Numbered from the stretch's first letter, positions 1,092-30,289 are shown. The stretch: DNA of 38,537 bases from Actinomycetes bacterium (GCA_021803005.1 JAJZQT010000006.1:1538-40074), one strand, 5' to 3'. The notes: a model not told the origin generated them from the letters alone. Numbers and translations are program-made.

Positions 1092-1136
1092 CGATCCTCC
1101 TTTTAATCGGTTATCTGGGGTTTTGGAAGAAAGTAA

Positions 1137-1153
1137 TGCAATTTCCATGCCAA
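1137..1153 (-). promoter_or_regulatory. Sigma-54 (-24/-12) promoter upstream of the DUF4418-like gene
   Basis: Minus strand TTGGCATGGAAATTGCA; GG-N10-GC spacing exact; consensus TTGGCACGNNNNTTGCA. Predicted TSS about 1126, about 35 nt leader with AGGAGG before the ATG at 1091. Confidence 0.8.
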
Positions 1154-1297
1154 GTCAGACGTTTATTTAAGCGATGCCTGAAAAAATTGCAATTCGCAGG
1201 TAGTTATGTCGTCTGTATGCACTGACGCTTATTTATATCTTGCGCAATAGACGGACTCCGGAAGAGGAAGTAATGGTGGAAAAGACGAGTTTTGACG

Positions 1298-1327
1298 CTC
1301 AAAGTGTGTCAAATGGCACAGCTTGAG
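1298..1327. promoter_or_regulatory. Candidate enhancer/UAS dyad for a sigma-54 activator (site 1)
   Basis: CTCAAAGTGTGTCAAATGGCACAGCTTGAG, a 30-bp imperfect dyad with core TGTGTCAAATGGCACA at 1305-1320; centre about 186 bp upstream of the predicted TSS of the 1137-1153 promoter. Confidence 0.55.
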
Positions 1328-1354
1328 AGTCAGGGACCACGGGGGCTCAGCGCT

Positions 1355-3883: not shown

Positions 3884-3887
3884 AGTC

Positions 3888-4961
3888 TCATTGTGGCGGC
3901 CACGGGCAGCAGGATGGCCATCCCGGGGGCGGCCCGGAACCGGCAGAGCCGCTTCCGGAGTCCGAAGAGCCGCCGGAGCCGCCGCTGGTGTAGACGTAGC
4001 CGCGGTATGTCTGCCCGCCGGCAGCCGCGACGGCGTTGGTGTCGGCTATAAAGCTAAGCGTCATTGTCAGAGGCGCCTCGAGGAAGCTGCCGTTGGCCCC
4101 GTTGGCGCGATTCAGTTTTATGGTGTAATCGCTGCCGCGGTCGAGGCCCGGACAGGTGATGACGATCTTTTCCTTTTCCACGGAAATGCCGGCGTCGGGC
4201 AGAGTCGTCTCCAGCGCCGTCTTGACCGCTGCGGCGTCGGCGAAGGCCGTGTTCGAATCCAGCTCGATTGTCACCGGCCCACCGCTGTCGGCGACCTTGC
4301 CGTAGAGCGACAGGGGCTTTACAACGCTGGCGCGGATCTCTTTGGATTCGAGGGTTGACGTATCGGTCGCGGTGGCTGATATCGCCAGCAGGTGCGTGGC
4401 GCCCTGCTTGAGAGAAACAGTCGGCGGAAAAGTAGCAAGCTCGGGATGGTCGGGATCCAGCTGGAGGTCGACCTTGTCGCTTCCGTCCACCGATACGGAC
4501 GCCTGCACCAGCGGCTTGTTGAAAGTAAAGACGAGGTTGGCCTGGGGCGGGATGCTGTTGCCGGGAACATAGCGGGCGCCGTCGACAGTCATGGCTTCGA
4601 TCTCGATGGGAGGGACCATGGTGAAACTCGAGGTGAATTCCCTGGTGATGCCGATTATCGAGCTGACCTTTGTCTCGATTCTGACCTGCTGCCCCGGTTT
4701 CAGATCGAGGTCGCGAACTAAATCGCCCGTGCCTGTATTGTATTCCAGGGCCAGGGGCTTCCCGTCGGCATAGATAGCGACCTTGCCGATGGAAGCCAGC
4801 GCCGACGAGTTGATCGTTATCGGCTGACCGAGAGCGATGCCTGTCTGCGAGTCCGAGGGGGTAATGGAGGCTGTGGGCACAGCCAGCCAGAAACATAAGG
4901 CCAGGACCGCGATTGCGGCGCCGGCGATAACCGTGAGCTTTTTCTTGTCGGTTGCTTGCAA
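3888..4961 (-). CDS. Exported/membrane-anchored protein with Ig-like domains
   Basis: Follows the sigma-54 leader; candidate TTG start at 4961 gives MQATDKKKLTVIAGAAIAVLALCFWLAVP, a signal/anchor sequence; ORF track starts at TTG 5000, in the loop of a strong hairpin. Start uncertain. Confidence 0.65.
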   Translation of the reverse strand: MQATDKKKLTVIAGAAIAVLALCFWLAVPTASITPSDSQTGIALGQPITINSSALASIGKVAIYADGKPLALEYNTGTGDLVRDLDLKPGQQVRIETKVSSIIGITREFTSSFTMVPPIEIEAMTVDGARYVPGNSIPPQANLVFTFNKPLVQASVSVDGSDKVDLQLDPDHPELATFPPTVSLKQGATHLLAISATATDTSTLESKEIRASVVKPLSLYGKVADSGGPVTIELDSNTAFADAAAVKTALETTLPDAGISVEKEKIVITCPGLDRGSDYTIKLNRANGANGSFLEAPLTMTLSFIADTNAVAAAGGQTYRGYVYTSGGSGGSSDSGSGSAGSGPPPGWPSCCPWPPQ

Positions 4962-5125: not shown

Positions 5126-5142
5126 AGCAAAAATCGTGCCAA
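5126..5142 (-). promoter_or_regulatory. Sigma-54 (-24/-12) promoter upstream of the Ig-like protein operon
   Basis: Minus strand TTGGCACGATTTTTGCT; full match to consensus TTGGCACGNNNNTTGCW with GG-N10-GC spacing; predicted TSS about 5115. Confidence 0.85.
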
Positions 5143-5697: not shown

Positions 5698-6384
5698 TCA
5701 GTCCGCATCTTCGGCGAGGTGACCGCGGTTCATGCGCAGCGCCCGCTGTGTCTGCGAAGCCACCGCCCGTGAGTGTGTGGCGATGATGATGGTGATGCCC
5801 TCTGAGTTTATCCGCTTGAAGATTTCGAGGATATCGGCCTCAGTGTCCTCGTCCAGGTCGCCGGTGGGCTCGTCGGCGAGAATGAGTTTGGGTTCGTTCA
5901 TCAGCGTGCGTGCGAGTGCCACCCGCCGCTGCTCGCCGCCCGAGAGTTGCCCGGGGTAGGAATACATCCTGTCCTCGAGGCCGACGAGCTTGAGCAGTCC
6001 GGCGGCGCGGCCGATATCGCCGGAGCCGTTTCTGCTGCCGAAAGTCGAAGGCAGTCTGACGTTGTCGAGAGAGGACAGAGTCGGCAACAGGCTGGCAAAC
6101 TGGAACGAAAACCCTATCTTCTCGTTCCTGAGCGTCGACATTTCCTTGTCCGCGAGGGTCCAGATGTTGGTGCCGTCGATGATGACACGACCCGAGCTTG
6201 GCTTGGTCAAGCCGCCCATCAGGCTCAGGAGCGTGGTTTTGCCCGACCCCGAATGCCCGACAATTGAGACCAGTTGACCCCGCGGAATTTCCAGGTCAAC
6301 ACTGTCTACTGCCCGGACCGTGCTCGGCCCGACCTTGTAAGCCTTGCTCAGATCCTTGAGGACTATCATGGCGTCATCGGTCAT
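5698..6384 (-). CDS. ABC transporter ATP-binding protein, MacB/LolD type
   Basis: Walker A GHSGSGKTTLL, signature LSGGEQRRVALARTL, Walker B LILADEPTGDLD. Confidence 0.95.
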   Translation of the reverse strand: MTDDAMIVLKDLSKAYKVGPSTVRAVDSVDLEIPRGQLVSIVGHSGSGKTTLLSLMGGLTKPSSGRVIIDGTNIWTLADKEMSTLRNEKIGFSFQFASLLPTLSSLDNVRLPSTFGSRNGSGDIGRAAGLLKLVGLEDRMYSYPGQLSGGEQRRVALARTLMNEPKLILADEPTGDLDEDTEADILEIFKRINSEGITIIIATHSRAVASQTQRALRMNRGHLAEDAD

Positions 6385-7587
6385 TTATTCACCCTGCCGG
6401 ATGGCAGCATAGGGTTCCAGCCTGCTGGAGCTCAGGGCCGGATAAAGCGAGGCCAGGGCGCCGCTGATTATCGATAGCAAAAGGGTGCCGCCCATCAACA
6501 TGCCGAAGTACCACAGCGGCGGCCACAGGTAGGGAATTCCCAGGCTCGAGGTAATGACCGCCTTGAAGATGAAAAGGGCGGCGCCGCCCACGAAGATGCC
6601 GGCGATGCCTCCGGCGGCGGTCAGGAAAACCGCCTCGGTCAGCATCAGGCGGAAAACGAATCTGCGGTTCGAACCCATGGCCCGGAGCAGGCCGATCTCG
6701 CGCTGGCGCTCGTTGACGATCATGGAAAAGATGGCGGCGATGGTGAGAAGCGACATCACCCAGACAATGGCGTCGATAGCGATGAAGCCCCTGGTAAAGC
6801 CGGATAGCCGGTCGGTGACCGAACGGCTGAGCTCGTTGGCGGTGATGACCATGGTCCCGGGGACGCTGGTCTTGATGCGCTGTGTCACCTGGTCGATGTT
6901 TGAGCCCGGGGCGATCTTGACCAGCACCGAGGAGATAGTGCCTCGCTTGACGTCGAGGGGAGACTCCGCCACCTGCGCTGATTCTTCCGCCATGGTGTAG
7001 GCGGTGTCGATGTTCATGAAAACGCTCTCATCGGCGCCCATGCCGGTACCGTCCAGCACGCCGGCGACGTCGAAATTATGGCCGTAAAAGTGTACCTGCT
7101 CACCCTTGTTGGCGAGGATCAGAGAACCGATGACGACCTCGTTCTTGTCGAGAGTCCGGTTGAGGTTCTGCGCCAGCCAGGGGCCGATCACAAAATCGCT
7201 GTCCGGATCGTAGCCCACGAGCTGGACGTGACCGGTGCAACATTGCGAGGAGACCATCGACTCGATGAACAGCTGCGGCGATGCCTGGGCGACACCTTTA
7301 ATGTTCCTCACCTGGTCGAGCACGGAGTGATTCATGTAGAAGCTGGTCGGCGCGCCGGTTATCAGCGCCGCCTGCCCGGATTCCTGGTAGCCTTCGGGCA
7401 CGACCAGCAGGTCGGCGCCCAGGCGTTGCATTCCCACTTCGAGGCTGCGATCGACGCTGCCGATCAGCAGGGTCGCTGAGAACAGAGCGCCTGCCGCGAG
7501 TCCGACGATGGCAATGGTTACAAAGCTCCGGAAGGGCTTGCGGCGGAGGTTTTGTGCTCCCAGATAGAGGAGCCCGAGGCGTTTCAT
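6385..7587 (-). CDS. ABC transporter permease, FtsX/MacB type, with CC-containing periplasmic motif
   Basis: N-terminal TM, extracellular MacB-like domain (SSQCCTGHVQLVGYDPDSDFVIGPWL), C-terminal FtsX TMs (NERQREIGLLRAMGSNRRFVFRLMLTEAV); abuts the ATPase gene. Confidence 0.9.
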   Translation of the reverse strand: MKRLGLLYLGAQNLRRKPFRSFVTIAIVGLAAGALFSATLLIGSVDRSLEVGMQRLGADLLVVPEGYQESGQAALITGAPTSFYMNHSVLDQVRNIKGVAQASPQLFIESMVSSQCCTGHVQLVGYDPDSDFVIGPWLAQNLNRTLDKNEVVIGSLILANKGEQVHFYGHNFDVAGVLDGTGMGADESVFMNIDTAYTMAEESAQVAESPLDVKRGTISSVLVKIAPGSNIDQVTQRIKTSVPGTMVITANELSRSVTDRLSGFTRGFIAIDAIVWVMSLLTIAAIFSMIVNERQREIGLLRAMGSNRRFVFRLMLTEAVFLTAAGGIAGIFVGGAALFIFKAVITSSLGIPYLWPPLWYFGMLMGGTLLLSIISGALASLYPALSSSRLEPYAAIRQGE

Positions 7588-7643
7588 GAGATTAGCTTTG
7601 GCTCCTTGGAATGAAACGAAAACAGTTCATAGGGATAATCCCC

Positions 7644-7672
7644 AGAATACATATGTGTTTTGTCAGCGTCAA
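7644..7672 (-). promoter_or_regulatory. Putative housekeeping-sigma promoter for the ABC/lipoprotein operon
   Basis: Minus strand TTGACG-N17-TATTCT upstream of the permease gene. Confidence 0.5.
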
Positions 7673-7739
7673 GCTGGCGGTAGGCAGATAATGGCAGGAG
7701 TTCCAGGCAGATTACCCCGGCGGGTATGCACGAACGCAC

Positions 7740-9083
7740 TCACTTTTCCAGCCCGTATTTTTCGATACGGTACAACAGGGTATGGCGGCTGATGCCGAGA
7801 AGCTCGGCGGCCCTGGTGCGGTTGCCGTCCGTGCGCGCCAGCGCCTGGGAGATCAGCTCACGCTCGACTTTCTCCAGCGCCACTCCTTCGGCCGGCAGGC
7901 GGATGGCATCGCTGGAAAGCGGCGCGCCCAGTCGCACCTCGGCAGGCAGGTCTTCAGGGCCGATGGTCTTGCCCTGACTGAGGATCGTCGCCCTCTCGAT
8001 CATGTTTTGCAGTTCGCGGACATTCCCGGGCCAGTGGTAGGCTTCCAGCAACCGCAGCGAGCCGTCAGGCAGATTTTTGTCGGGGGCGAAGCGCGTCAGA
8101 AAGTGTTTTGCCAGAAGGCTGATGTCGCCGCGCCGCTCGCGGAGCGGCGGCATGTTTATGGGGATGACGTTAAGCCGGTAGAAGAGGTCCTCGCGAAATT
8201 GTCCCTGCTTGATCATCGAGGGCAGGTCGCGGTTGGTGGCGCCGATCAGCCTTACGTCGACATTTATCGTCTTGGAGCCGCCCAGCCTCTCGAAACTCAT
8301 CTGTTCCAGGACCCGCAGAAGTTTCACCTGCACCGTCAGCGAAATGTCGCCGATCTCATCGAGAAAGAGCGTGCCGGTGTCGGCCAGCTCGAAGCGTCCC
8401 GGCTTGGAATCGCCGGCCCCCGTGAAGGCGCCCTTCTCGTAACCGAAGAGCTCGCTTTCCAGCAGGGTCTCCGGCAGGGCGGCACAGCTCAGCTGGATAA
8501 AGGGCTTGCCGCGGCGGGTGCTCTGCTCGTGCAGCGCCCGCGCGATCAGTTCTTTGCCGGTACCGCTCTCGCCATAGATCATCACCGAGGCTTCGGAGGC
8601 GGCGACCCGGGAAACTGTCTCGAGGATCCGCTTCATCTGCGGGCTCTCGCCGATGATGCCGGAAGTATCATAATCACGGTCGAGCTCGCCGCGAAGGTAA
8701 TCGACCTCGCGCTCGAGCTTGCCGACCTTGAGGGCTTTGGCCACGGTGAGCTTGAGCTCCTCGACGTCGAAAGGCTTGGTGAGATACTCGGTGGCGCCGG
8801 CTTTCATCGCCTGGACCGCGCTCTCGACGTTGCCGTGGGCGGTGAGCATGATGACAGGCAGCCCCGGATGTTCCTTCTTGATCTCCGTCAGCGCCGCGAG
8901 CCCGCCCATTCCCGGCATGCGCTGATCGAGGATGACCAGGTCCGGGACCGACTCGTCAAAAGCCGTGAGCGCTTCCTCTCCGGATGAGGCCTGGCGCACC
9001 TCGTGGCCGGCGCCCGAGAGGGCTCTTCCCACGACGAAACGCATGTTCTTCTCGTCATCAACGATGAGGATGTTGCTAGGCAT
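7740..9083 (-). CDS. NtrC-family sigma-54-dependent response regulator (REC-AAA+-Fis)
   Basis: [13 protein letters not shown] receiver; [15 protein letters not shown] Walker [14 protein letters not shown] sigma-54 interaction loop; C-terminal [26 protein letters not shown] Fis HTH. ORF-track N-terminal extension rejected; ATG at 9083. Confidence 0.95.
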
Positions 9084-10653
9084 CGGCGATCTCTTCCGCT
9101 TCCTTGCCTGCGCGGGTGAGGGGAAGGCCGACGATAAAGGTGCTCCCCTTCCCCGCCTCGCTGTCGACGCTGATGAAGCCTTGATGGGAGTCGATGATGC
9201 GATGGACGATTGAAAGTCCCAGGCCGCTTCCTTCCGCCCGGGTTGTATGGAAGGGATCGAAGATCTTTTCCTTCTCCTCAGGCGACAAGCCAATGCCGCT
9301 GTCAGTAAAGGAAATCCTCAGGTAGCCGTCGCGGGCGGCCCCGGCCGTGGTCAGGCTGCCGCCGTCGGGCATCGCCTGAATCGCGTTTGATATCAGATTT
9401 ACGAAAATTTGTTTCAATCGGTCCTCGTCGGCCCAGATATGCGGCAAGCCTTCGGGCAGTTCGTTCCTGACCTCGACATTCTGTTGCTTGGCGAACTGCT
9501 TGGTGAGCAGAACCACTTCGCCCAGGACACGGCCCGCATCCACAGTGCCGAACTGTGACTCAGAGGGGCGGCCGAAGTCAAGCAGCGCGTTGACAACCGA
9601 GTCCAGACGGTCGATCTCCTGGATCATAACATGGGTAAGCTCGGTATCCCCGCATCCGGAATCCATTTCCTGCTCCAGCATCTGCACGCTGGCCTTGATG
9701 ACGCCGAGCGGATTTCGCACCTCGTGCGCGACGCCCGCCACGATTTCGCCCAGGCCGGAAAGCTTGTCAGCGCGGAGCAGCTGTTCCGTTAGGTCCTTGA
9801 CTTCACTGAGGTCCTCGATGGTGATGACGATGCCTACGGTCTGGCCGCGGCTGCGGTGGGGCGCGATGCGCACGGCCGCCGGCAGGGCTCGCCCGTTCGA
9901 TGAAAGTTCTGTCTCCAGGGTTGCCCGTTCCTGCCCACCGGCAAGAATCTGTTCCGCGGCGAGGACGAGGCCGGGGTGCTCCTCGAAGATCTTTGCCATG
10001 GGGAAGGCGACCAGGTCATCCTCGTGGCGGGCCAGCAGCTGGCGGGCGGCGGGGTTGACGGTGACGATGATGCCGCGGCGGTCGCAGGCGATGACACCGC
10101 TGCTGACGCTGCTGAGAACGCTCTCCGTGTACGCCTTCATGTGGCGGATGGCGGTCTCGCGCTCCTCGATCTCGCTGTTGAGCTTAAGGACCTCCTGGTA
10201 GCGCTGTGCCTGGCGCCGCTTGGCTTCGACGACGGCGCCGGTTATCAGCGCCAGAACATTGTAAAGAATGACCTCGAAAAGATTATCCAGCGAGCCGGAG
10301 ACAAACAGGCCGCCCATCGACATGATGGCATGGAAAAGGAAAAAGGCGCTGACCGAGAGTGAGGCCAGCAGTCCTCCCTTGATACCAAAACGGAAGGCGG
10401 AGTAAAGGATCGGCACATAATACAGCCGCCGCAGCAGGATGTGGAAGTCGTCCTGTGTGATGAATTCAAAATGAGGCGGATAGTAATGGAAGTAGGTGAT
10501 GACGACGATCGTCACCGCCACCAGCACGGCGTCGCGGATCTGCGACCAGGCTTTGGTTCCGGCTTCCGCCATCGGACGCTCCGGCGCGATCACGGCATCG
10601 GTGTCGATGTTCATCGGTTTGTCCCTGCCTTCATCGGCTGCCTCGCCGGTCAT
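9076..10653 (-). CDS. Membrane PAS sensor histidine kinase
   Basis: N-terminal TM block, PAS domain (SVLSSVSSGVIACDRRGIIVTVNPAA), H-box GVAHEVRNPLGVIKAS, N/G boxes NLISNAIQAMPDGG, DSGIGLSPEEKEKIFDPFHTTRAEGSGLGLSI. ATGA overlap with the rpoN stop. Confidence 0.93.
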   Translation of the reverse strand: MTGEAADEGRDKPMNIDTDAVIAPERPMAEAGTKAWSQIRDAVLVAVTIVVITYFHYYPPHFEFITQDDFHILLRRLYYVPILYSAFRFGIKGGLLASLSVSAFFLFHAIMSMGGLFVSGSLDNLFEVILYNVLALITGAVVEAKRRQAQRYQEVLKLNSEIEERETAIRHMKAYTESVLSSVSSGVIACDRRGIIVTVNPAARQLLARHEDDLVAFPMAKIFEEHPGLVLAAEQILAGGQERATLETELSSNGRALPAAVRIAPHRSRGQTVGIVITIEDLSEVKDLTEQLLRADKLSGLGEIVAGVAHEVRNPLGVIKASVQMLEQEMDSGCGDTELTHVMIQEIDRLDSVVNALLDFGRPSESQFGTVDAGRVLGEVVLLTKQFAKQQNVEVRNELPEGLPHIWADEDRLKQIFVNLISNAIQAMPDGGSLTTAGAARDGYLRISFTDSGIGLSPEEKEKIFDPFHTTRAEGSGLGLSIVHRIIDSHQGFISVDSEAGKGSTFIVGLPLTRAGKEAEEIADA

Positions 10654-12194
10654 AGGTTTGCCTTGCGCTCCCACGAAGCGGGAATCCCCAGCGCGTCGCG
10701 GTACTTGGCGACCGTCCGGCGCGAGATGTTGACACCATCATTTTTAAGCAGATCAGCCAACTTCTGGTCGGACAGTGGATGACGGGCGTCTTCGTTTGAA
10801 ACCAGCCCGGTAAGCCGCTTTTTGACCGCTGTGGCGGAAAGTCCCTCTCCGCCGGCGGTTGAGTATCCGGCCGAGAAGAAGTAGCGAAACTCGAAGACGC
10901 CGAAAGGTGTGCTCATGTACTTGCCGAGGATGGCCCGGCTGACCGTGGAAGGGTGCACCTCGAGCTTTTTGGCGATGTCTTCCAGCCCTAGCGGACGCAG
11001 GTAGCCTGGCCCCCGCTCGAAGAATTCAGGCTGGGCGTCGGCAATGGCTCTGGCGACTTTTGCCACGGTGGCGCGTCTGTGGTCAATGTCCCGGATGAGC
11101 TGTGAGGCCTTTTTTAGTTTTTTACCGATATAGCGGGCGGTCTCGGCATCGACTGCAGGTTGGGCGCCCGTGGCTGCGCCCGGCGCGAAGGTTTCAGCGC
11201 CCGCTCCGGCATGGCTTTTTGCCTGCGCCTTGCCCGCGGCTGCCATCTGCTGGTACATGCGGCTCAGCCGCAGCGAAGGCATGATCTCTCGATTGGCGAG
11301 GATGCGGACCCGCCCGCGGCCGGGCCGGGCATAGACGTCGGGGATAATAGCCGCCGCCGGGGGGCTGGTGTCAAACAACGATCCCGGTGAAGGGTTCAGC
11401 TCCCGGATCAGGGCGACCGCTCTTCTTACCGTTGCGGCCGTGACTCCCAGGGATTTTGCAATCTCGGCCAGAGCTCCGCTTGCCACCTGGGGCAGGTAAT
11501 CCCGGGCGATGCGTATCGCCGAAACGCCGGCGTTCATCTGCTCGAGTTGGATGGCCAGGCACTCCTCGAGGCTGCGCGCGGCGATGCCGGGGGGATCGAA
11601 GCGATGCATCACCGCAAGCACGGTCTCGATTTCCAGCGCCGGGCGGTTGATCGTGCGGGATAGCTCCTCGACCGACTCGCGCAGGTATCCGTCTTCGTCG
11701 AGGCTGCCGATGATGGCGAGCCCGATGCGGTTCTGCTCCTTGCTCAGGTTGGCCAGATGGAGTTGCAGGGTCAGGTATTCGTCAAGCGTCTCCGGGCTGG
11801 CGGTCAGCTCGCCGGGTGTGGGGGCGGGGCCGCTGACGGCGGTTCCCGAACCTTGTGAGCGGTTTGACCTCTGGAAATCTTCCCAAAGCTCCCTTTCCGT
11901 GGATTGCCCGGGCTCGGCATCGAAATCCGACGGCTCGGGAATTTCCAGGGTGGGATTCTCGTTTAGCTCCTTCTGGATGAGCACCTGCAGCTCGTTCGCG
12001 CCCAGACGCAGTATCCTGAGGCTCTGGTAGAGCCTAGGGGAAAGGACCAGTTGCTGGCTTAAGCCCGGGGTTGTTTTTAGGGATGGTTTGAGTTCCATGA
12101 ACGGGGTTGCGGAAGCTTGCGCGTCCACCTCAATTGGTAAATTCGCTGGCCAGATCGGAACCGCGGCATTGCCGGTATTAAGCATATTACTCAT
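10650..12194 (-). CDS. rpoN: RNA polymerase sigma-54 factor
   Basis: Region I LSQQLVLSPRLYQSLRILRLGANELQVLIQKELNENPTLEI; core-binding region; RpoN box NISRRTVAKYRDALGIPAS. Confidence 0.95.
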   Translation of the reverse strand: MSNMLNTGNAAVPIWPANLPIEVDAQASATPFMELKPSLKTTPGLSQQLVLSPRLYQSLRILRLGANELQVLIQKELNENPTLEIPEPSDFDAEPGQSTERELWEDFQRSNRSQGSGTAVSGPAPTPGELTASPETLDEYLTLQLHLANLSKEQNRIGLAIIGSLDEDGYLRESVEELSRTINRPALEIETVLAVMHRFDPPGIAARSLEECLAIQLEQMNAGVSAIRIARDYLPQVASGALAEIAKSLGVTAATVRRAVALIRELNPSPGSLFDTSPPAAAIIPDVYARPGRGRVRILANREIMPSLRLSRMYQQMAAAGKAQAKSHAGAGAETFAPGAATGAQPAVDAETARYIGKKLKKASQLIRDIDHRRATVAKVARAIADAQPEFFERGPGYLRPLGLEDIAKKLEVHPSTVSRAILGKYMSTPFGVFEFRYFFSAGYSTAGGEGLSATAVKKRLTGLVSNEDARHPLSDQKLADLLKNDGVNISRRTVAKYRDALGIPASWERKANL

Positions 12195-17112: not shown

Positions 17113-18855
17113 TCACTTTGCAGGTTTTCCCGTTTTCGGACGCTTGAGGAATTTTTCGAGTTTTGCCGTGGTCAAAGTGTTCAGAACGGTGCCAGCCCCG
17201 ATCCAGCCGCGCCGGGCGGTGGCGATGCCATAGCGGAGCATGTCGAAATGAGCCGGCCGGTGAGCATCGCTGTTGATCACCAGCTTCACGCCGGCTTCCT
17301 GGGCCATGCGGGCGTGGCGGTCGTTGAGGTCGAGGCGTTGAAAATGTGAGTTTATCTCCAGGGCTGTTCCGGTGCGGGCGGCCATATCAATTAGTTTATC
17401 AATGTCAACTTCGTAAGGCTCGCGCCTGTTGATGAGCCTGCCGGTAGGATGTCCGATCGAGCGGACATACGGATTCTCCATGGCCGCGCTTAGACGCTTC
17501 ATGATCTGCCGGCGGCTTTGGTTGAAACCGGAATGTATGGATACGGTGACGAAGTCCAGCCGGGCAAGGTATTCATCCGGAAAGTCGAGGGCGCCGTCGG
17601 ACCTGACGTCGACCTCGGCGCTGGCAAACACATGGAAGCCCTTGAGCCTCATGTTGACCCGGGAGATCTCCTCCAGCTGCCCGTCGAGGCGCTCGGGCGT
17701 CAGCCCCTCAACCATTCCCAGCGACTGGGTGTGGTCGGAAATGGCCAGATACTTATAACCGCGTTCCTGGGTGGCGAGCGCCATCTCCTCGATGGTGGCG
17801 TGGCCGTCGCTCCAGTCGGAGTGCACGTGCAGATCGCCCTTGAGATCGCCGGCCTCGATCAGGCGCGGCAGCTTGCCGGCCGCCGCCGCTTCGATCTCGC
17901 CGGTCTCCTCGCGGAGCTCGGGCGGGATGTAATCGAGGCCCAGCAGGGCGTAGACTTCCTCCTCGGTGTCGCACTCGTGCACCTTGCCGGTGCCGGTTTC
18001 CTCAACCCCATACTCACTGACCTTGAGGCCCCTGGAGATGGCCAGCTCGCGCAGGGCCACATTGTGTTCCCTTGATCCGGTGAAATGCTGCAGGAGATTG
18101 CCGTAGAGGCCGTCTGGCACCACGCGCAGGTCGATCTGCAGTCCGGTGTGAGTTCGCACCGAACACTTCGTGGGGCCGCTGCCGATGACCTCGGCGACCA
18201 TGGGTAGTTGGCAGAAAACACCGGTCAGAGCTTCTGGCGCCGAGGCTGTGGCGATGATGTCGAGGTCCTTGACCGTCTCTCTCATGCGCCGGACGCTGCC
18301 GGCATAAGTCACGTTCCTGGCCTCGGGAACCTTCATGAGCGTCGCCACTGATTCTTCGGCGATGGGCAGCACCTCGCCCAGCAGCAGCCGGTGGCCGCGG
18401 GCGCGCAGGCGGCCGATCGCCTTGATGATGTTATCCGCGGATTTCTGGCCCATACCCGGAAGGGCGGCGATGCTGCCGTCGAGGGCGGCGGCCTCGAGTT
18501 CGGCCATGGTGGAAACGCCAAGCTCTTCCCAGACCTTGCGGGCGGTCCTGGGACCAACACCCTGGATCCGCTCGATCTCAACCAGCGCCGGCGGGTATTT
18601 CTGGAAATATTCCTCGAGTTCTCCCAGCTTGCCGGTGGCGACGATCTCTTCGATCTTGGCGGCGATGCTCTTGCCGATGTCGGGGATCTCGGTGAGGGCG
18701 CCGGCCCTGGCGCGCTCTTCAACGGAGTAGTTGAGCCCGGCGATCCGCTTGGCCGCTTTTTCCACGGAGATGACCTTGAACCTGTTGACCTCGTCAAGCT
18801 CCATCATTTCGGCCAGCGTATCCAGGATTTTGGCTATCTCTGTATTGCTGGCCAC
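17113..18855 (-). CDS. polX: DNA polymerase/3'-5' exonuclease PolX (Pol X + PHP)
   Basis: HhH segments (GVGPRTARKVWEELG), YAGSVRRMRETVKDLDIIATA nucleotidyltransferase, PHP KGDLHVHSDWSDGHATIEEMA and VINSDAHRPAHFDML. Confidence 0.95.
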   Translation of the reverse strand: MASNTEIAKILDTLAEMMELDEVNRFKVISVEKAAKRIAGLNYSVEERARAGALTEIPDIGKSIAAKIEEIVATGKLGELEEYFQKYPPALVEIERIQGVGPRTARKVWEELGVSTMAELEAAALDGSIAALPGMGQKSADNIIKAIGRLRARGHRLLLGEVLPIAEESVATLMKVPEARNVTYAGSVRRMRETVKDLDIIATASAPEALTGVFCQLPMVAEVIGSGPTKCSVRTHTGLQIDLRVVPDGLYGNLLQHFTGSREHNVALRELAISRGLKVSEYGVEETGTGKVHECDTEEEVYALLGLDYIPPELREETGEIEAAAAGKLPRLIEAGDLKGDLHVHSDWSDGHATIEEMALATQERGYKYLAISDHTQSLGMVEGLTPERLDGQLEEISRVNMRLKGFHVFASAEVDVRSDGALDFPDEYLARLDFVTVSIHSGFNQSRRQIMKRLSAAMENPYVRSIGHPTGRLINRREPYEVDIDKLIDMAARTGTALEINSHFQRLDLNDRHARMAQEAGVKLVINSDAHRPAHFDMLRYGIATARRGWIGAGTVLNTLTTAKLEKFLKRPKTGKPAK

Positions 18856-18858
18856 CGG

Positions 18859-19968
18859 TCACCCCCTGGATATTACCCGTTCATAGATCTTTCTGGTCTC
18901 GGCGGCCGTTGTCCGCCAGGAATAAATGGCAGACTGCTTCTTGCCCTTTTCGATGAGCTCCAGGCGCATCTCCTGCGAAGACAGCACCATCTCGATGGCT
19001 CCCGCCAGCTCGCCGGCGTTATGGGGATCGATCAGCACGGCGGCTTCCCCGACGATCTCCGGAATGGCGGTGGAGTTGGAGGTTACCACCGGCGTGCCGC
19101 AGGCCATCGCCTCCAGAGGCGGCAGGCCGAACCCTTCGTAAAGGGAAGGGAAAACGAGCACTTTCGCCAGGCTGTATATCGCCGGCATGTCGAAGTCGTG
19201 CACGTAACCGGCAAAGTGGACCCCTTCCAGATCGAGCCCGGCGAACGCCTCCTCGGGGGCGACCCGGCAATAATCGACGCCGGTGATCACCAGGTGCACG
19301 TCGGTGCGAACCCGGCGCAGCTGCCCGAACGCCTTGATCGCGGTGCGGATGTTCTTGCGGGGCTCGGTGGAGCCGACGCAAAGCGCGAAACGCGGCGGCA
19401 ACTGGTAGCGGTTGGTCACCTGCGCCAGTTCCGGCTCGTCGGTGATGGGCCGGAACTTTTCATTGACGCCGTCGGTGATGACGCTGACCTTGCCGGGATC
19501 GATACCGCTCCAGTCGAGGATGTCGCTGCGGGAGAATTCGGAGATGGTAATGACGTGGTCGGCCCCCTCGACCTTTTCCCGCAGGCGGCGCTCGTAGAGC
19601 CGCGCCCGCGAGGGGCTGTAGTAGTCCGACGCCAGCCGTACGAGGATGATGTCATGAAGGGTCATCACGCATGGGCAGGGCAGCCGCGAGGGCTCGGGAA
19701 GACCCATGTCCCGCGGGGAGTGGTAGACGTCGACCTGCCGTTCGGAGAGCTCCAGCGGTAACCGATACTCTTTATAGAGGTAATTGGCGACGCGTTCGGC
19801 ATAAGAGATGTTGTGATAGGAATCCCCCGCCATGCGCTGGTTCCGCGCGAAGAGCAGCACCTGGTCTCCCGGATTCAGCCTCCGCAGGTTCTGTACCAGC
19901 TCATGCGTATAAGTGGAGGTTCCGGTCCGGTGAAACAGGAGAGGGAGGCCTTCGATACCGATTCTCAT
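18859..19968 (-). CDS. GT4-family glycosyltransferase
   Basis: FALCVGSTEPRKNIRTAIKAF, FPSLYEGFGLPPLEAMACGTPVVTSNSTAIPEIVGEAAVLIDP. Confidence 0.93.
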   Translation of the reverse strand: MRIGIEGLPLLFHRTGTSTYTHELVQNLRRLNPGDQVLLFARNQRMAGDSYHNISYAERVANYLYKEYRLPLELSERQVDVYHSPRDMGLPEPSRLPCPCVMTLHDIILVRLASDYYSPSRARLYERRLREKVEGADHVITISEFSRSDILDWSGIDPGKVSVITDGVNEKFRPITDEPELAQVTNRYQLPPRFALCVGSTEPRKNIRTAIKAFGQLRRVRTDVHLVITGVDYCRVAPEEAFAGLDLEGVHFAGYVHDFDMPAIYSLAKVLVFPSLYEGFGLPPLEAMACGTPVVTSNSTAIPEIVGEAAVLIDPHNAGELAGAIEMVLSSQEMRLELIEKGKKQSAIYSWRTTAAETRKIYERVISRG

Positions 19969-20240
19969 GTACCAAATCCTAACGGGTTAGGTGGCGTTTT
20001 TGAAGGATATGGGCATAAGGAGGATAACTCTTTTACAGGTGGCCCGCTGAAAAGGGTTAATACACTGCGCCGTCACTTCACATTTTTACGTGTTGCTTAC
20101 ATAGGAATGATATTAGTTACCGACCGCTGCCCCGAATCGATCACAGGATAGTCCGCAGGCTCCGGAATCTTTGCAGGACGGCCGGCAGTCTCGGGAATCA
20201 TTTGCCAGGGTAGGGGCGGGGCAAGCTCCAAGAGGTATTG

Positions 20241-23200
20241 ATGTTCAAGCGTGGCAAGACAAAAATCCTCACCGGCATCGCCGCGACCGCACTTATTGTT
20301 GCCGCCGCCGTCCTGTTCCTCCCCGGCTTTAGCGGCCGGACACCTCCACCGGAAACAAGCGGCGGTGATGTGGTCAGCGCCGGAGCGGATTTCCGGTCGG
20401 GCGATCTTGAAGGCACCAGCGTAGCGCCCTCCACCCGGGGCGGCGACCTGGCCCTGGCGCTCGACCCTGCCAGGGCGCAGGGCGGCTATGTCTCCGAGCC
20501 AGCCATGGCTGATTACCCCTTCAACGCGCTGGGGCTGCACTGGAAGGCGGACATGCCCGCCGGCACTGATGTCAATGCTGAGGTCCGCTTCAGTCAGGAC
20601 GGCGAGCAGTGGGGCGATTGGCAGCCGGTCGAGAAGAACGGGGACGAATTGCCGGATCACATCGACCAGACCAAATCGGCTGGCGAGACCATCGGCGACC
20701 TGGTGTTCACCGATGCGGCCCGTTACTTCCAGTATCGCCTGAGTCTCACCGGCAACTCCGCCGGGCAGTCTCCGGCCGTGACCAAGATGACGGCCAGCTA
20801 TATCGACGGCAAGGGCTATCACGAGTCGCTGCTATCAGCGACGAATATCGTCCGCAATGTCAGCGCCGCGCTGAGCCCGCCGGAGGCCAGCGCCAATCCC
20901 AATATCATCTCCCGCGCCCAGTGGGGAGCCAACGAAGCTCTTATGACCTGGCCACCGGAATATTTCCAGCCCAAGAAGATAGTCATTCATCATACTGTTA
21001 CAGCGAATGGCGATCCGGACCCGGTAGCCACGATCAAGTCAATATATTATTACCATGCCGTCAGCCTCGGCTGGGGCGATATCGGTTATAACTACCTGAT
21101 CGATCAGCAGGGCAGAATCTACGAGGGCAGGGCGGGCGGAAATGGCGTCAGCGGCGCCCACGCGCTGGGCTGGAACGATGGCAGCATCGGCATCTCCGTG
21201 CTCGGCAACTACCAGGTTGCCGACATCAACGGGGCTATCTACAACGCCATGGTCGATCTGATCACCTACGAAGCTAACTTGAATCACATCAATCCTTCTG
21301 GCTCGGATTATTTTGAATACTACGCGGGATGTAATGGTGGTTGTAATCCCACCGGCATCTACGCGCCCAACATACTTGGGCACCGCGACCTCGCCGGCAA
21401 CTATACTGCATGTCCGGGCCAGTATCTGTATGCTCGCATCCCGCAATTCCGCGCCATTCATTATGGACCCGATTTTGCCAATCCAATGCCATCGAGCTCG
21501 AACGAAACAGCCAGCAACCGTCCGCTGATCAGCGCCGACGTCATCGGCTCGACCATCATTCCGGAAACGATTTCGATGCAGCTCGACGGGGTCGATGTCA
21601 CCGCAGGCGCGACCCGGAACCCGACGTTGGTGAGTTACAGGCCATCGGTTGCGCTTGCCCCGGGAACCCATACCGTACATACGTACGTTGCCGACTCCTG
21701 GGGCTTTACCAAGACTGCGGACTGGTCGTTCACGGTCGCGGCTACCAATTATTCTCCACATGACTACCTCTGGACCTGGTACGACGGCGTCAACAGCCGC
21801 AACTGGGTGTTGATGGCCAACCCGGTTTCGGCCGGCAACGACCTCTTCTTCGATCTCTATGTCGCCGGCAGATATATGAACATGACTCCGTTCGCACAGA
21901 CCGATAGCCAGTGCCCGGGATTCTGCGGGGCCGGCAGGGTACAGGCAGGCAAGAGCATCACGCCGCTTTACAAAGGCATCATGGGCGGCCCGGTGGACGC
22001 CGCGTCGCTTACAGGCGCAAAGGCCATCACCAGCCAGCGCACGATCTGGGGACAGAATTCCTTCGAGGAAGTGCCGGGCTTCGATTCGCAGAGGCTGACC
22101 GACCATTACTACTGGACCTGGTACGACTCGGCCAGTGCCGGCTACAAGAACTGGATCCTGGTCGCCAACCCCAACGCCTCGACGGTCTTTTACAAGATCA
22201 AGATCGCCGGGAATGAGTACCAGCAGGGCACGATCAATCCGGGCGCCAGCGTGACGCCGATCTTCATGGGCATCATGGGTGGGCCGGTCGAGGTGCAGGC
22301 CTGGAGCGATGGCGTCGGTGGCGCCACTCCCGCCAAGATCATGGCTTCACAGCGAGTGCTCTCAAATGGCGGCTCGGCCTTCAACGAGGTTCCGGGCATT
22401 CCCGCGGCAGAGCTGTCCGACCGCTATCTTTGGACCTGGTACGACATGCAATCCGCCGGCGCCAGTGACTGGGTGCTGGTGGCAAATCCCACCAACGCTT
22501 CCGTCTATTACGAGATCTCGGTTGCGGGCCATCTTGTAAATACCGGAACGGTTCCCGCCGGCGGCCGGGTGACGCCGACATTCCCGGGCACGATGGGCGG
22601 TTCCGTCGAGGTGCAGGCCTGGACCGATTCCGGCAAGAGTGCGCCTGCGAATGTCATCGCCTCGCAGCGCGTGGTCTGGGGTCCATCCTTCGAGGAAGTC
22701 CCGGGCTACCCGGTATCTCAACTCAATTCTTCATACGTCTGGACCTGGTATGACCAGAAGAGCGCCGGCGCCACTAACTGGGCGCTGGTTTCCAACCCCA
22801 ACGCCTTCCCGGTCAACTACGAGATCAGGATCGCAGGCAACCTGGTTAACACAGGCACCCTGCAGGCTGGCGCCAGCACGGCCCCGACCTTCCCCGGGGC
22901 TATGGGCGGCCCGGTCGAAGTCAAGGCGACGACGACCTGCCCGTCGCCGCAACCGGCGAATATCCTGGCGTCGCAGCGAGTGCTTTGGAACGGCTACTTC
23001 AATGAGGTGACCGGGACCGTGCTCGACAGTGCCCCGGGAACGGGCAGCGGCTGCGGCAGCACGACCGTGACCTCCGACGCCGCCTTCGAGGTCAGGGACG
23101 GCAACGGCGTCCTGCTGACGACCCTGGCCGCGGGACAGACCGCCACGGTGGCCTACGGCGGCGGCTCTTATCTGGTGCAGACGAGCACCGGCTATTCCCA

Positions 23201-23933
23201 CACCGGCGACTCCTACATCAGGATGGCTTCCCCGACCGGCGGCATCATGCAGGTTACGTCCTATCATGACGTCCCCGGCTGGAACCCGGCGCTTGACGAC
23301 AACAGGTTCCGCGGCGCCATCGAGGTGCGTTACTCATCCGTTTCCGGCAAGGTGTGGGTGGTGAACGACCTGCCCCTCGAGGATTATCTCAGGGGGATCG
23401 CCGAGACCAGCTCCGGCGATTATCCCGAATACCTGAAGACGATGTCGACCGCCGCGCGCGGTTACGCCCTCTGGCACCTGAACAACGGCGGCAAGTACGG
23501 CAGCTCCGAGGTCTTTCAGCTCAAGAACAGCCGCAACGGCAATGGTGACGACCAGCAGTACCGTGGCTTCGGGCTGGAATCGCGATTCCCGGATCTGGTG
23601 ACCGCGGTTACGGCCACCAGCGGGCAGGCGGTGACCTACGGGGGCAACGTGGCGATCACGCCCTATTATTCCAATTCCGACGGCAGGACGCGCTCGGCCC
23701 TGGAAGCCTGGGGTATCGATTACTGGCCCTGGCTGCAGAGCGTTCAGGATCCCGACTGCGCCGGCATGACCCTAAACGGCCATGGCGTCGGCATCAGCGC
23801 CGTCGGGGCGCGGGCCCGCGCCGGCCGCGGCGACAGCTTCCAGACCATCCTCGGTTATTACTACACGGGAACCGCGGTGCAGCCCGTGGATACCAACAAG
23901 GACATCAGGATCGCGATCGCCAGCGTCTCCTGA
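20241..23933 (+). CDS. Secreted PGRP/Amidase_2 - WTWYD repeat - SpoIID/LytB fusion protein
   Basis: Signal sequence; PGRP domain IISRAQWGANE...KKIVIHHTVT...GHRDLAGNYTACPGQYLY; four YxWTWYD...GGPVEV...ASQR...EVPG repeats; SpoIID domain LPLEDYLRGIAETSSGDYPEYLKTMSTAARGYALWH...GHGVGISAVGARARAGRGDSFQTILGYYYTG. Confidence 0.92.
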   Translation: MFKRGKTKILTGIAATALIVAAAVLFLPGFSGRTPPPETSGGDVVSAGADFRSGDLEGTSVAPSTRGGDLALALDPARAQGGYVSEPAMADYPFNALGLHWKADMPAGTDVNAEVRFSQDGEQWGDWQPVEKNGDELPDHIDQTKSAGETIGDLVFTDAARYFQYRLSLTGNSAGQSPAVTKMTASYIDGKGYHESLLSATNIVRNVSAALSPPEASANPNIISRAQWGANEALMTWPPEYFQPKKIVIHHTVTANGDPDPVATIKSIYYYHAVSLGWGDIGYNYLIDQQGRIYEGRAGGNGVSGAHALGWNDGSIGISVLGNYQVADINGAIYNAMVDLITYEANLNHINPSGSDYFEYYAGCNGGCNPTGIYAPNILGHRDLAGNYTACPGQYLYARIPQFRAIHYGPDFANPMPSSSNETASNRPLISADVIGSTIIPETISMQLDGVDVTAGATRNPTLVSYRPSVALAPGTHTVHTYVADSWGFTKTADWSFTVAATNYSPHDYLWTWYDGVNSRNWVLMANPVSAGNDLFFDLYVAGRYMNMTPFAQTDSQCPGFCGAGRVQAGKSITPLYKGIMGGPVDAASLTGAKAITSQRTIWGQNSFEEVPGFDSQRLTDHYYWTWYDSASAGYKNWILVANPNASTVFYKIKIAGNEYQQGTINPGASVTPIFMGIMGGPVEVQAWSDGVGGATPAKIMASQRVLSNGGSAFNEVPGIPAAELSDRYLWTWYDMQSAGASDWVLVANPTNASVYYEISVAGHLVNTGTVPAGGRVTPTFPGTMGGSVEVQAWTDSGKSAPANVIASQRVVWGPSFEEVPGYPVSQLNSSYVWTWYDQKSAGATNWALVSNPNAFPVNYEIRIAGNLVNTGTLQAGASTAPTFPGAMGGPVEVKATTTCPSPQPANILASQRVLWNGYFNEVTGTVLDSAPGTGSGCGSTTVTSDAAFEVRDGNGVLLTTLAAGQTATVAYGGGSYLVQTSTGYSHTGDSYIRMASPTGGIMQVTSYHDVPGWNPALDDNRFRGAIEVRYSSVSGKVWVVNDLPLEDYLRGIAETSSGDYPEYLKTMSTAARGYALWHLNNGGKYGSSEVFQLKNSRNGNGDDQQYRGFGLESRFPDLVTAVTATSGQAVTYGGNVAITPYYSNSDGRTRSALEAWGIDYWPWLQSVQDPDCAGMTLNGHGVGISAVGARARAGRGDSFQTILGYYYTGTAVQPVDTNKDIRIAIASVS
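21762..23030 (+). repeat. Four tandem ~105-aa WTWYD protein repeats encoded in DNA
   Basis: WTWYD codons at about 21771, 22113, 22431 and 22740; each unit continues NW.L.(A/S)NP...I/VAG...GGPVEV...SQR...EVPG. Confidence 0.85.
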
Positions 23934-25124: not shown

Positions 25125-25919
25125 ATGAAAAAAATTAACTCACTCCAATATTACGGATTGGTAAGGGAACTAACCCTTACCGATTTCAAACTCAAATACA
25201 AAGCCTCGTTTTTCGGCTATCTCTGGTCACTGGCAAAACCCCTGATGCTCTTCGGTGTGCTGCTGGTCGTATTCTCGAAGTTTCTCAAGCTGGGCGGAAG
25301 CATCCCCGATTATCCAGTCTATCTCCTGCTCGGCATCGTCCTCTGGACTTTCTTCATCGAAGCGACCTTCTCATCGCTGACCTCGATCGTCAGCAAGGGC
25401 GACCTGATCCGGAAGGTTTATTTCCCGCGGATCATCCTGACCATTTCCGCTTCGGTGACAGCGTCGATCACCCTGCTTCTGAACATCGTCGTCGTGCTTA
25501 TATTCATGTTCTTCTCCAAGATCTCACTGACGGTGACGGCGCCGCTGATTCTGGCGCTGATGATCGAGTTCTTCATCCTCACCGCGGGGGTTTCGCTTAT
25601 TCTGGCGTCGCTGTTTGTTCGTTTCCGCGACATCGCCCACATCTGGGAAGTTGCCGCCCAGGTCCTTTTCTATGCGACGCCGATTCTTTACCCCTTGAGC
25701 CTGGTGCCGGAGAGTCTCGGCCAGATCATCATGCTGAACCCTCTGGCCCAGATCATCCAGGACAGCCGCTACGTCCTCATCACCAATGAGACCGGGACCG
25801 TTTTCAACACGCTCTCTTTTCCGCTCAACGTGGTCCCTTATGCGCTGCCGTTTGTTATCTTTGCCGCCGGTTACTGGATCTTCCAGAAAGAAGCCTCCAA
25901 GTTCGCCGAGGAGATCTGA
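25125..25919 (+). CDS. Polysaccharide ABC exporter permease (Wzm-like, ABC-2)
   Basis: Six-TM ABC-2 protein: LVRELTLTDFKLKYKASFFGYLWSLAKPL, NPLAQIIQDSRYVL; translationally coupled to a Wzt-like gene. Confidence 0.9.
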   Translation: MKKINSLQYYGLVRELTLTDFKLKYKASFFGYLWSLAKPLMLFGVLLVVFSKFLKLGGSIPDYPVYLLLGIVLWTFFIEATFSSLTSIVSKGDLIRKVYFPRIILTISASVTASITLLLNIVVVLIFMFFSKISLTVTAPLILALMIEFFILTAGVSLILASLFVRFRDIAHIWEVAAQVLFYATPILYPLSLVPESLGQIIMLNPLAQIIQDSRYVLITNETGTVFNTLSFPLNVVPYALPFVIFAAGYWIFQKEASKFAEEI

Positions 25920-27136
25920 TGGCCAGGGAAGGGGACATCGCCATCAGGGTCGACAACCTGTCCAAGCGTTTCCGGATTCCCCATGAAAAGCACGCCACTT
26001 TGAAAGCGGCGGCGCTCCACCTCTTCGACCAGAAAAGCTACACCGAATTCCAGGCCCTCGATGATGTCAGCTTCGAGGTCAGGAAGGGAGAATTTTTTGG
26101 CATCATCGGCCGCAATGGATGCGGCAAGAGCACGCTGCTGAAGATAATCGCCGGCATTTATGTCCCCACCGGCGGCAGGGTCAAGATCGACGGCCGCATC
26201 TCTCCCTTCCTTGAGCTGGGGGTTGGTTTCAATCCCGAGCTAACCGCCAGGGAGAACATATTCCTCGGCGGCTCGATACTGGGGCTGACCAGAAGGGCGA
26301 TCGAGGAGAAGTTTGACAGAATAGTAGAATTCTCGGAGCTGGCGGATTTCATCGACATGAAGTTCAAGAATTTCTCGTCGGGCATGCAGGTGCGGCTGGC
26401 CTTCGCCCTGGCCATTTATGCCCACGCGGAGATATTGCTGATGGACGAGGTCTTGGCCGTCGGCGACAGCAACTTCCAGAGCAAGTGCCTGGAGGAATTC
26501 AATAACTACCGGGAGGAAGGCAAGACGGTAATCCTGGTCACCCACGACATCTCCGTGGTTCAGAGGTATTGCGACCGGGCCATGCTGCTGCGGGACGGGA
26601 AGATCGTCAAGATGGGGGATCCCGAGGAGATCGGCAACGAGTACATCCTCCAGAACATGAGCGACGAGGAAAAAAGGATCGCAGAAGCCAAGAAGGACGG
26701 CGCCGGCGACGGCATCGACCGCAAGAGGGACGTCGCCATCACCAACGTGGAATTCCTGGATGAAAAAGGGCAGGAAAGAAGCGTATTCGGCACCGGAGAG
26801 GATATAATAGCCCGGATCCATTATTTCTCCAGGCAGACGATCGAGAAGCCGGTTTTCGGGGTGGCGATCCACACCCAGGACAACATCCATATTTCCGGCC
26901 CCAATACCAGGACTTCAAACTTTGACATACCGGAGATACAGGGCGAAGGATACGTGGATTTCATCATCAGAAAAGCGCCCTTTTTCACCGGAACCTTCAA
27001 TCTCACAGTGGCGCTTTTCGACTGGAACCTGGTCATACCGTATTCCTTCCAGGAGCAGAAATACGTCTTCAGGATAAAGTCCGCGGAAGCCAACCAGTAC
27101 GGGGTCGTCAAGCTCGATACCGGCTGGAAGCGATAG
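25919..27136 (+). CDS. Polysaccharide ABC exporter ATPase (Wzt-like) with C-terminal carbohydrate-binding-type domain
   Basis: GIIGRNGCGKSTLLKIIAGIYVPTGG, FSSGMQVRLAFALAIYAHAEILLMDEVLAVGD; about 150-aa C-terminal Wzt_C-like extension. Confidence 0.92.
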   Translation: MAREGDIAIRVDNLSKRFRIPHEKHATLKAAALHLFDQKSYTEFQALDDVSFEVRKGEFFGIIGRNGCGKSTLLKIIAGIYVPTGGRVKIDGRISPFLELGVGFNPELTARENIFLGGSILGLTRRAIEEKFDRIVEFSELADFIDMKFKNFSSGMQVRLAFALAIYAHAEILLMDEVLAVGDSNFQSKCLEEFNNYREEGKTVILVTHDISVVQRYCDRAMLLRDGKIVKMGDPEEIGNEYILQNMSDEEKRIAEAKKDGAGDGIDRKRDVAITNVEFLDEKGQERSVFGTGEDIIARIHYFSRQTIEKPVFGVAIHTQDNIHISGPNTRTSNFDIPEIQGEGYVDFIIRKAPFFTGTFNLTVALFDWNLVIPYSFQEQKYVFRIKSAEANQYGVVKLDTGWKR

Positions 27137-28966: not shown

Positions 28967-30289
28967 ATGATGCCGGACAATCAGATAAAACTCGCGGGCA
29001 GGGTCTTCGATTATTACCGGGCCAACGGCGCCAAAAAAATGCTGCGCCGCGCCGCCCAGAGAATCGCGCAGGGCCAGGCCGGCGACGAGCCGGCGCCGAT
29101 CGGCTGCTCTCTGCCACCGGAGGCCGCCGCTCTTCCCATCAGACGGGTGGAAAATACGGCAGGCCGCCGCCGGTTGACCCTGGTCATACCCTCGGTCGAG
29201 CGCCAGCATCTCTTCGCCGGCTCCTGGACGGCGCTGAAAGTATTCTGGGAAGCTGCCAGGGCGCATGATTTCCGCGCCCGGATCGTCTGCAACAATACCC
29301 CCTATAACCCCGAGGCTCTCCAGAGCCTCGATTTCATCTCGCCCGCGGAGCTGGCCGGGATCGAATCGTGGGCGCGTCCGGGCGGCGGTTATTGCGAGGT
29401 GGAGGATGACGAGATCTTCATCGCCACCGCCTGGTGGACCGCTTACGCCCTCAGGCGGCTGGAATTGACGCACAAGGTTTTCTACCTGGTTCAGGATTTT
29501 GAGCCGAGTTTTTATCCGTGGTCCCACCAGTATCTGCTGGCGCTGGAGACCTACAAACTCAATTATTCAAAGATCATCAACACCTCGATCCTCTATGATT
29601 TTTTCCGGGATCGTGGCCATCTGCACGGCAGTGAGGCGGTGTTTTTCGAGCCCGCCATCAATACGGAACTGTACCGCCCCGGGGAATCGCGTGATTATGC
29701 CGCGACCGGCAAGGCGACGCTCCTTATCTACGGCCGCCCGAGCGTTCCCCGGAATCTCTTTGACGTCGCCTGCATGAGCCTTCAGCATTTCTTCAGGACC
29801 AATCCCACTTACCGGGAAAAACTCGGCCGCATCATCTCGGTGGGGGAAAAGCACGCCGATTTCTCCGTGGACGGATACGAGGTTGTGTCGCGCGGGAAGA
29901 TGTCGCTGGAGGAATGGGCGGCGCTGGCGAGGTCGAGCGATGTCGGCATATCGCTGATGAGTTCGCCTCATCCAAGCTACATTCCCCTGGAAATGGCCGC
30001 ATCCGGTATGGTGGTCGTCAGCAACAACATGTTCAACAAGGATCTCTCCAGGGTCAACGGTAATTTCGTCACCTCGGCACCTGGTGTCGAGGAAATTGCG
30101 GACTGCATCCGGAGGGCGCTCGACAAGCTTGAAGATCAGGACGAGATCAACGCCAACGCCAGACTCTTTGTTTCCGACGGCCGCGGCGACTGGAGCAGCA
30201 ACCTCAAACACGTGACCGAGTTTATCGCCGGGAACAAAATCCTCGAAGAGGAAACTTCAAAGGACGGTTGCCATGTGGCTGATGGATAA
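28967..30289 (+). CDS. Glycosyltransferase, WsaF-like (rhamnosyltransferase-type)
   Basis: KVFYLVQDFEPSFYPWSHQYLLALETYKLNYSKIINTSILYDFFRDRG; C-terminal DVGISLMSSPHPSYIPLEMAASGMVVVSN. Confidence 0.82.
   Translation: MMPDNQIKLAGRVFDYYRANGAKKMLRRAAQRIAQGQAGDEPAPIGCSLPPEAAALPIRRVENTAGRRRLTLVIPSVERQHLFAGSWTALKVFWEAARAHDFRARIVCNNTPYNPEALQSLDFISPAELAGIESWARPGGGYCEVEDDEIFIATAWWTAYALRRLELTHKVFYLVQDFEPSFYPWSHQYLLALETYKLNYSKIINTSILYDFFRDRGHLHGSEAVFFEPAINTELYRPGESRDYAATGKATLLIYGRPSVPRNLFDVACMSLQHFFRTNPTYREKLGRIISVGEKHADFSVDGYEVVSRGKMSLEEWAALARSSDVGISLMSSPHPSYIPLEMAASGMVVVSNNMFNKDLSRVNGNFVTSAPGVEEIADCIRRALDKLEDQDEINANARLFVSDGRGDWSSNLKHVTEFIAGNKILEEETSKDGCHVADG

Follow-up and report, generated by a model that had tools for sequence, protein, structure and literature searches.

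An exported PGRP amidase–SpoIID fusion predicted in an actinobacterial family, with relatives in Patescibacteria and Omnitrophota

Dependence of SpoIID – a glycan-cleaving wall protein – on a partner amidase is so far known solely from two-protein systems. SpoIID of C. difficile needs amidase action beforehand, is inactivated by the substitution E101A, and is the only SpoIID from which a zinc-binding C/H cluster has been reported (PMC6221140). The chlamydial SpoIID has a septal role, and that of Waddlia acts as a lytic transglycosylase on intact peptidoglycan and as a muramidase on bare glycans (PMC6635528). LytB of B. subtilis, also a SpoIID-domain protein, has minute activity alone, boosts the amidase LytC, and can also target adjacent cells (PMC7176660); its gene and lytC lie side by side among those for wall teichoic acid (PMC8753576).

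Here, we describe a gene in which an amidase domain and a SpoIID-type domain are encoded together. It lies within a window (the whole stretch of DNA analysed, 38,537 nucleotides) from an Actinomycetes bacterium; the relatives in its family that have named records are MAGs assigned to Actinomycetes/Thermoleophilia, BMS3Abin01 among them. The gene is one unbroken frame of 1230 aa on the plus strand, running from an ATG at 20241 to a stop that ends at 23933; AAGAGG sits immediately 5′ of the ATG, and an in-frame TTG is present ahead of it at 20238. The original prediction of a single polypeptide with both a PGRP amidase and a SpoIID domain is borne out by the uninterrupted frame and by two domains that score above curated cut-offs, and the four repeats that it placed between them were located. 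The layout is as follows:

20241..23933, plus strand: complete gene for the fusion of PGRP amidase, spacer and compact SpoIID (frame, Pfam, NCBIfam, orthologues)
20241..20321, plus strand: basic/hydrophobic N-terminal segment, aa 1-27, predicted signal peptide or signal anchor (hydrophobic core 9-27)
20343..20855, plus strand: beta-rich N-terminal region, aa 35-205 (alignments of unfused homologues; boundaries by eye)
20895..21455, plus strand: PGRP/Amidase_2 zinc amidase domain, aa 219-405 (Pfam, phmmer against PDB, residue alignment)
21468..21740, plus strand: Ig-like stretch, aa 410-500 (weak Big_13 match, E 0.087)
21750..22100, plus strand: WTWYD repeat 1, aa 504-620
22101..22418, plus strand: WTWYD repeat 2, aa 621-726
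22419..22727, plus strand: WTWYD repeat 3, aa 727-829 (modelled beta-sandwich, pLDDT 91)
22728..23027, plus strand: WTWYD repeat 4, aa 830-929
23055..23345, plus strand: beta-rich N-terminal extension of the compact SpoIID, aa 939-1035 (conserved together with the SpoIID core)
23346..23888, plus strand: compact SpoIID catalytic core, aa 1036-1216 (Glu E1055 at 23403-23405; SNSDGRT and GHGVG motifs)

Because residues 9-27 are the sole strongly hydrophobic stretch of the fusion, the protein would be exported or N-terminally tethered, and is probably an exported, membrane-tethered one. The beta-rich region that follows (aa 35-205) has no Pfam match in a profile search of the fusion protein; it also stands ahead of the PGRP domain in unfused actinobacterial PGRPs and in Microgenomates fusions, and unfused homologues align to the fusion from aa 13-114 onward.

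The amidase domain matches Pfam Amidase_2 at residues 243-394 (E 3.3e-17, 63.5 bits against a cut-off of 26) and PGRP structures in the PDB with E-values down to 2.5e-17 (phmmer). The H/H/C zinc ligands foreseen in the motifs IHHT, GHRD and ACPG correspond to H250 (20988), H381 (21381) and C391 (21411), with Y283 (21087) and T389 (21405) as catalytic partners, and the five positions are kept in 43-44 of 44 distinct fused proteins. These comparisons confirm the N-terminal domain as a predicted PGRP/Amidase_2 zinc amidase, and it is the lone Amidase_2 in the genome (1.77 Mb, 90% complete). An exception is the PGRP domain of an Omnitrophota fusion (L060, 3763-6729), which has IHDT, with Asp replacing the Cys ligand; its ligands may form an H/H/D set as in AmpD.

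The C-terminal domain was predicted to be of SpoIID type, and this stands as to family, fold and catalytic Glu, although it is a compact subtype and not a SpoIID orthologue. Residues 1036-1133 score 33 bits against Pfam PF08486 (cut-off 23), and the match to the SpoIID_LytB family TIGR02669 of NCBIfam reaches 88.6 bits (cut-off 83.3); the score against the sporulation SpoIID equivalog TIGR02870 is 67.3, far under its cut-off of 234.75, which places the domain in the SpoIID/LytB family rather than among SpoIID orthologues. A phmmer search of the PDB matches it to Bacillus anthracis SpoIID (4rwr), and an AlphaFold2 model (pLDDT 91.5) is matched by Foldseek to 5i1t and 4rwr (E 3e-12 to 2e-9, probability 1.0) as well as to the spore-germination lytic transglycosylase SleC (9h68), with a global TM-score to SpoIID of about 0.5. 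About 85 residues found between the two motif blocks of solved SpoIIDs are missing: the gap from SVxDP to GHGVG is ~10 residues versus 85-95 in the B. anthracis and C. difficile proteins, a middle segment that is not known as a requirement of the SpoIID/LytB family and whose absence marks the compact subtype. E1055 aligns with the catalytic E101 of C. difficile SpoIID (5txu) and so corresponds to the Glu that characterizes SpoIID/LytB enzymes (E88 in B. subtilis); it is present in 44/44 fused proteins and is invariant throughout the alignment of compact SpoIIDs. The catalytic residues are thus intact in the amidase (H/Y/H/T/C) and in the modelled SpoIID fold. A zinc site of the C. difficile type (H134, C140, H145, C146) was sought and is absent, the window domain having only C938 and C1173. 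This SpoIID is the sole one in the genome. Standalone compact SpoIIDs without PGRP occur in other actinobacteria and in Patescibacteria, and fusion is therefore not required.

The spacer between the two catalytic domains is ~630 aa. It includes four WTWYD repeats (~100 aa each), and the one modelled, repeat 3, is predicted as a seven-stranded beta-sandwich; the repeat belongs to no Pfam family, with weak DUF5719 matches in 2 of 26, and the model has no Foldseek match below E 0.001, the best ones being lectin- or CBM-like. WTWYD-type repeats (window 21750-23027) are also an abundant surface-protein module in many other proteins of this family's genomes, and a large protein at 1355-3883 on the minus strand of the window, with several Ig-like (Big_13) stretches, is probably a surface protein. 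Among fused proteins the catalytic ends are constant and the spacers unrelated and swapped: WTWYD repeats in the window, nine LGFP repeats (L026), NBR1-type Ig domains (L054), YPDG/LIENGKKR-type repeats (L064, L071), and others. The WTWYD repeats would fit a generic wall- or glycan-binding arm, the models offering a hint only of glycan binding.

The fusion is present as one ORF in at least ten genomes of the window's Thermoleophilia family, with full-length orthologues ~60% identical in other genera; two family genomes of 97-98% completeness (G008 and G015) lack both domains. Fused ORFs occur in three phyla, and a scan of named genomes recovered them from Microgenomates, Paceibacterota and Omnitrophota. 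Of 380 Patescibacteria genomes sampled, at least 39 encode both domains in one ORF (matched by contig, position and frame length), and all 20 candidates retrieved were confirmed as single ORFs; the compact SpoIID profile matches 190 of the 380, part of these being classical SpoIIDs, and Amidase_2 is found in 95. The architecture is thus not peculiar to the window, being shared by the Thermoleophilia family, Omnitrophota and Patescibacteria, and the ~60% identical orthologues together with two-domain ORFs in other phyla show that it is not a chance fusion. We found no description of it in the open-access literature, although domain-architecture databases may well list it automatically.

Other arrangements of the two domains were also observed. 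In BMS3Abin01 (G011, L032) the halves are neighbouring secreted proteins (5737-8550 and 1049-4933, both minus strand) with matching GWAIDPD repeats, and the SpoIID half carries at its N-terminus a new lysozyme-like region that matches no Pfam family. A protein from another family of the same class (L042, 1943-5857) combines a PGRP domain, four near-identical Ig-like repeats and a classical SpoIID that is circularly permuted, with the GHGVG block ahead of the catalytic block; its PGRP derives from the actinobacterial clade. In a further actinobacterial lineage (L111, 410-4999, minus strand) a PGRP gene lies 88 bp upstream of a classical SpoIID gene on one strand. The separate fusion and the adjacent genes indicate that the pairing apparently arose more than once. 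In the trees of the two domains the window's family falls close to fused sequences from Patescibacteria, and in the PGRP tree it groups with Microgenomates fusions (support 83); this tree was rejected as proof of transfer from Patescibacteria, since vertical actinobacterial ancestry is compatible with the data (AU test p 0.556). A phage origin was likewise set aside, no relative having been confirmed in the viral contigs scanned.

The neighbourhood of the fusion includes surface-glycan genes:

17113-18855: polX, beside the GT4 gene
18859..19968, minus strand: GT4 glycosyltransferase, divergent from the fusion (neighbour in 8/8 family genomes, with polX)
25125..27136, plus strand: Wzm/Wzt-type polysaccharide ABC exporter (ABC2_membrane; ABC_tran and Wzt_C)
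28967..30289, plus strand: WsaF-type rhamnosyltransferase of the same surface-glycan cluster

The cluster also holds GT2s and methyltransferases, and the exporter lies downstream of the fusion in six of the seven family genomes with downstream sequence. The GT4 gene and the PolX-type DNA polymerase/PHP gene (17113-19968) are conserved divergent neighbours family-wide. None of the 19 family genomes has SpoIIP or Spo0A. The non-sporulation, cell-surface setting that had been proposed is therefore upheld, by these absences and by the recurrence of GT4-polX, the exporter and the surface-glycan genes. Amidase_3, the type to which LytC belongs, is present in every family genome in one to three copies. 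Genes for GT2 (L060, L064, L068, L071), WecG/TagA (L062) or the O-antigen ligase Wzy_C (L054) are found close to individual fused copies in distant lineages, although glycosyltransferase genes are common. A sigma-54 promoter was considered for the fusion gene and rejected, the only consensus match (5127-5141, minus strand, exact -24/-12) being far from it, and the upstream intergenic region has no sigma-70 match; the window also carries rpoN, a sigma-54 response regulator and a histidine kinase (7740-12194).

The Wzm/Wzt and glycosyltransferase neighbourhood suggests that the fusion may be linked to the export or attachment of surface polysaccharide. We consider it fairly probable that it is a two-step autolysin serving surface-glycan assembly, with domain activities and an order of action that we infer from domains, catalytic residues, predicted export signal, and conserved architecture and context, all read from sequence. 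The PGRP zinc amidase would cut the MurNAc-L-Ala bond and strip the stem peptides, and the compact SpoIID would then, via Glu1055, cleave the MurNAc-GlcNAc bond of the bared strand. Between the two domains the repeats would serve as an interchangeable arm, binding wall or glycan and holding both sites on one wall patch, a tethering role that, like the polysaccharide-linked function, we infer. The fusion would in this way do in cis what SpoIIP and SpoIID, or LytC and LytB, do in trans, opening or remodelling the wall where surface polysaccharide is exported or attached. In favour of two steps are the recurrence of the pairing as fusion or adjacent genes, the lack of SpoIIP in the family, and the sole Amidase_2 and sole SpoIID being those of the fusion; against it are the ~85 missing residues and TM-score of ~0.5 of the compact SpoIID, the existence of such domains without PGRP, and the family's Amidase_3 enzymes, which could supply bare glycans. 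The premise that SpoIID acts on stripped glycans holds for C. difficile (PMC6221140), but the Waddlia homologue cuts intact peptidoglycan too (PMC6635528) and LytB is an enhancer (PMC7176660), so that amidase first and SpoIID second would be the leading model only.

The main rival is a LytB-like role, in which the SpoIID domain is chiefly a binding module or enhancer that docks the PGRP amidase on glycan with little or no cleavage of its own. The minute activity of LytB alone and its boosting of LytC (PMC7176660), the place of lytB and lytC in the teichoic acid region (PMC8753576), and the truncation of the compact domain relative to SpoIID are all consistent with it; we nevertheless regard it as unlikely, as a Glu invariant in 44/44 fused proteins and in compact SpoIIDs would be needless in a pure binding domain, and standalone compact SpoIIDs exist without a PGRP partner. 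Two independent activities on different wall regions or substrates, joined only so that one export signal and one wall anchor serve both, would be permitted by the ~630-aa spacer and by the action of Waddlia SpoIID on both intact peptidoglycan and bare glycans (PMC6635528). This reading appears rather improbable given the pairing of SpoIID with an amidase, fused or neighbouring, in several lineages and the dependence of classical SpoIID on an amidase (PMC6221140).

Function elsewhere than at sites of polysaccharide assembly has also to be weighed. An autolysin that separates daughter cells at the septum, its polysaccharide neighbourhood being coincidental, would accord with the septal location of chlamydial SpoIID (PMC6635528) and with the fusion holding the genome's sole SpoIID, but the conserved neighbours are an exporter and glycosyltransferases, not division genes, and G008 and G015, without both domains, indicate that cells of this family can divide without it; we think such a role about as improbable as the LytB-like one. 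An outward-directed lysin acting on the walls of neighbouring or host cells could explain the spread among Patescibacteria (at least 39 of 380 genomes), and the varied surface-type spacers and the reach of LytB to neighbouring cells (PMC7176660) speak for it. This is very unlikely: the fusion is conserved in a family with Amidase_3 wall enzymes of its own, no immunity or secretion-system gene adjoins it in the window, and no relative was confirmed in the viral collection scanned. The two-step autolysin can be extended to a widespread class of single-chain bifunctional enzymes – amidase then SpoIID in cis, with swappable arms, found in an actinobacterial order as well as in Patescibacteria and Omnitrophota, whose dedicated task would be to open the wall for surface-polysaccharide export – a generalization that we put forward tentatively, as possible rather than probable.

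That the pair has been fused, apparently more than once, with both active sites kept across phyla, argues strongly, if circumstantially, for the importance of the sequential reaction outside sporulation. With a single-chain enzyme, channelling, the part played by tethering and the sequence of the two reactions become open to direct test, and Patescibacteria, about whose wall turnover little is known, gain a candidate wall-remodelling enzyme.

Among described systems, the SpoIIP and SpoIID pair of the engulfment DMP complex resembles the proposed action of the fusion in that an amidase and a SpoIID enzyme work one after the other on the same glycan, and has the same catalytic Glu and SpoIID fold, but consists of separate proteins held by SpoIIM, employs the amidase SpoIIP rather than a PGRP, and is sporulation-specific. 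LytC and LytB (CwlB/CwbA) of Bacillus subtilis are likewise a vegetative amidase and a SpoIID-domain partner encoded beside wall-glycopolymer genes (PMC8753576, PMC7176660), but are two proteins, and LytB is a described enhancer with cell-wall-binding repeats of another type, which have no Pfam match in the fusion and in whose place stand the unrelated WTWYD repeats. Waddlia chondrophila SpoIID with AmiA provides glycan cleavage after an amidase in a non-sporulating organism (PMC6635528), although the proteins are separate and septal and SpoIID is a domain alone. Secreted PGRP/Amidase_2 amidases of Actinomycetota have the same amidase domain, often with the same beta-rich region ahead, and those examined from other families lack a SpoIID domain except for the independent fusion L042. 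The Patescibacteria and Omnitrophota fusions differ from that of the window in their spacers and, for L060, in an H/H/D-like ligand set, and share with it the domain order, the compact SpoIID and the catalytic residues.
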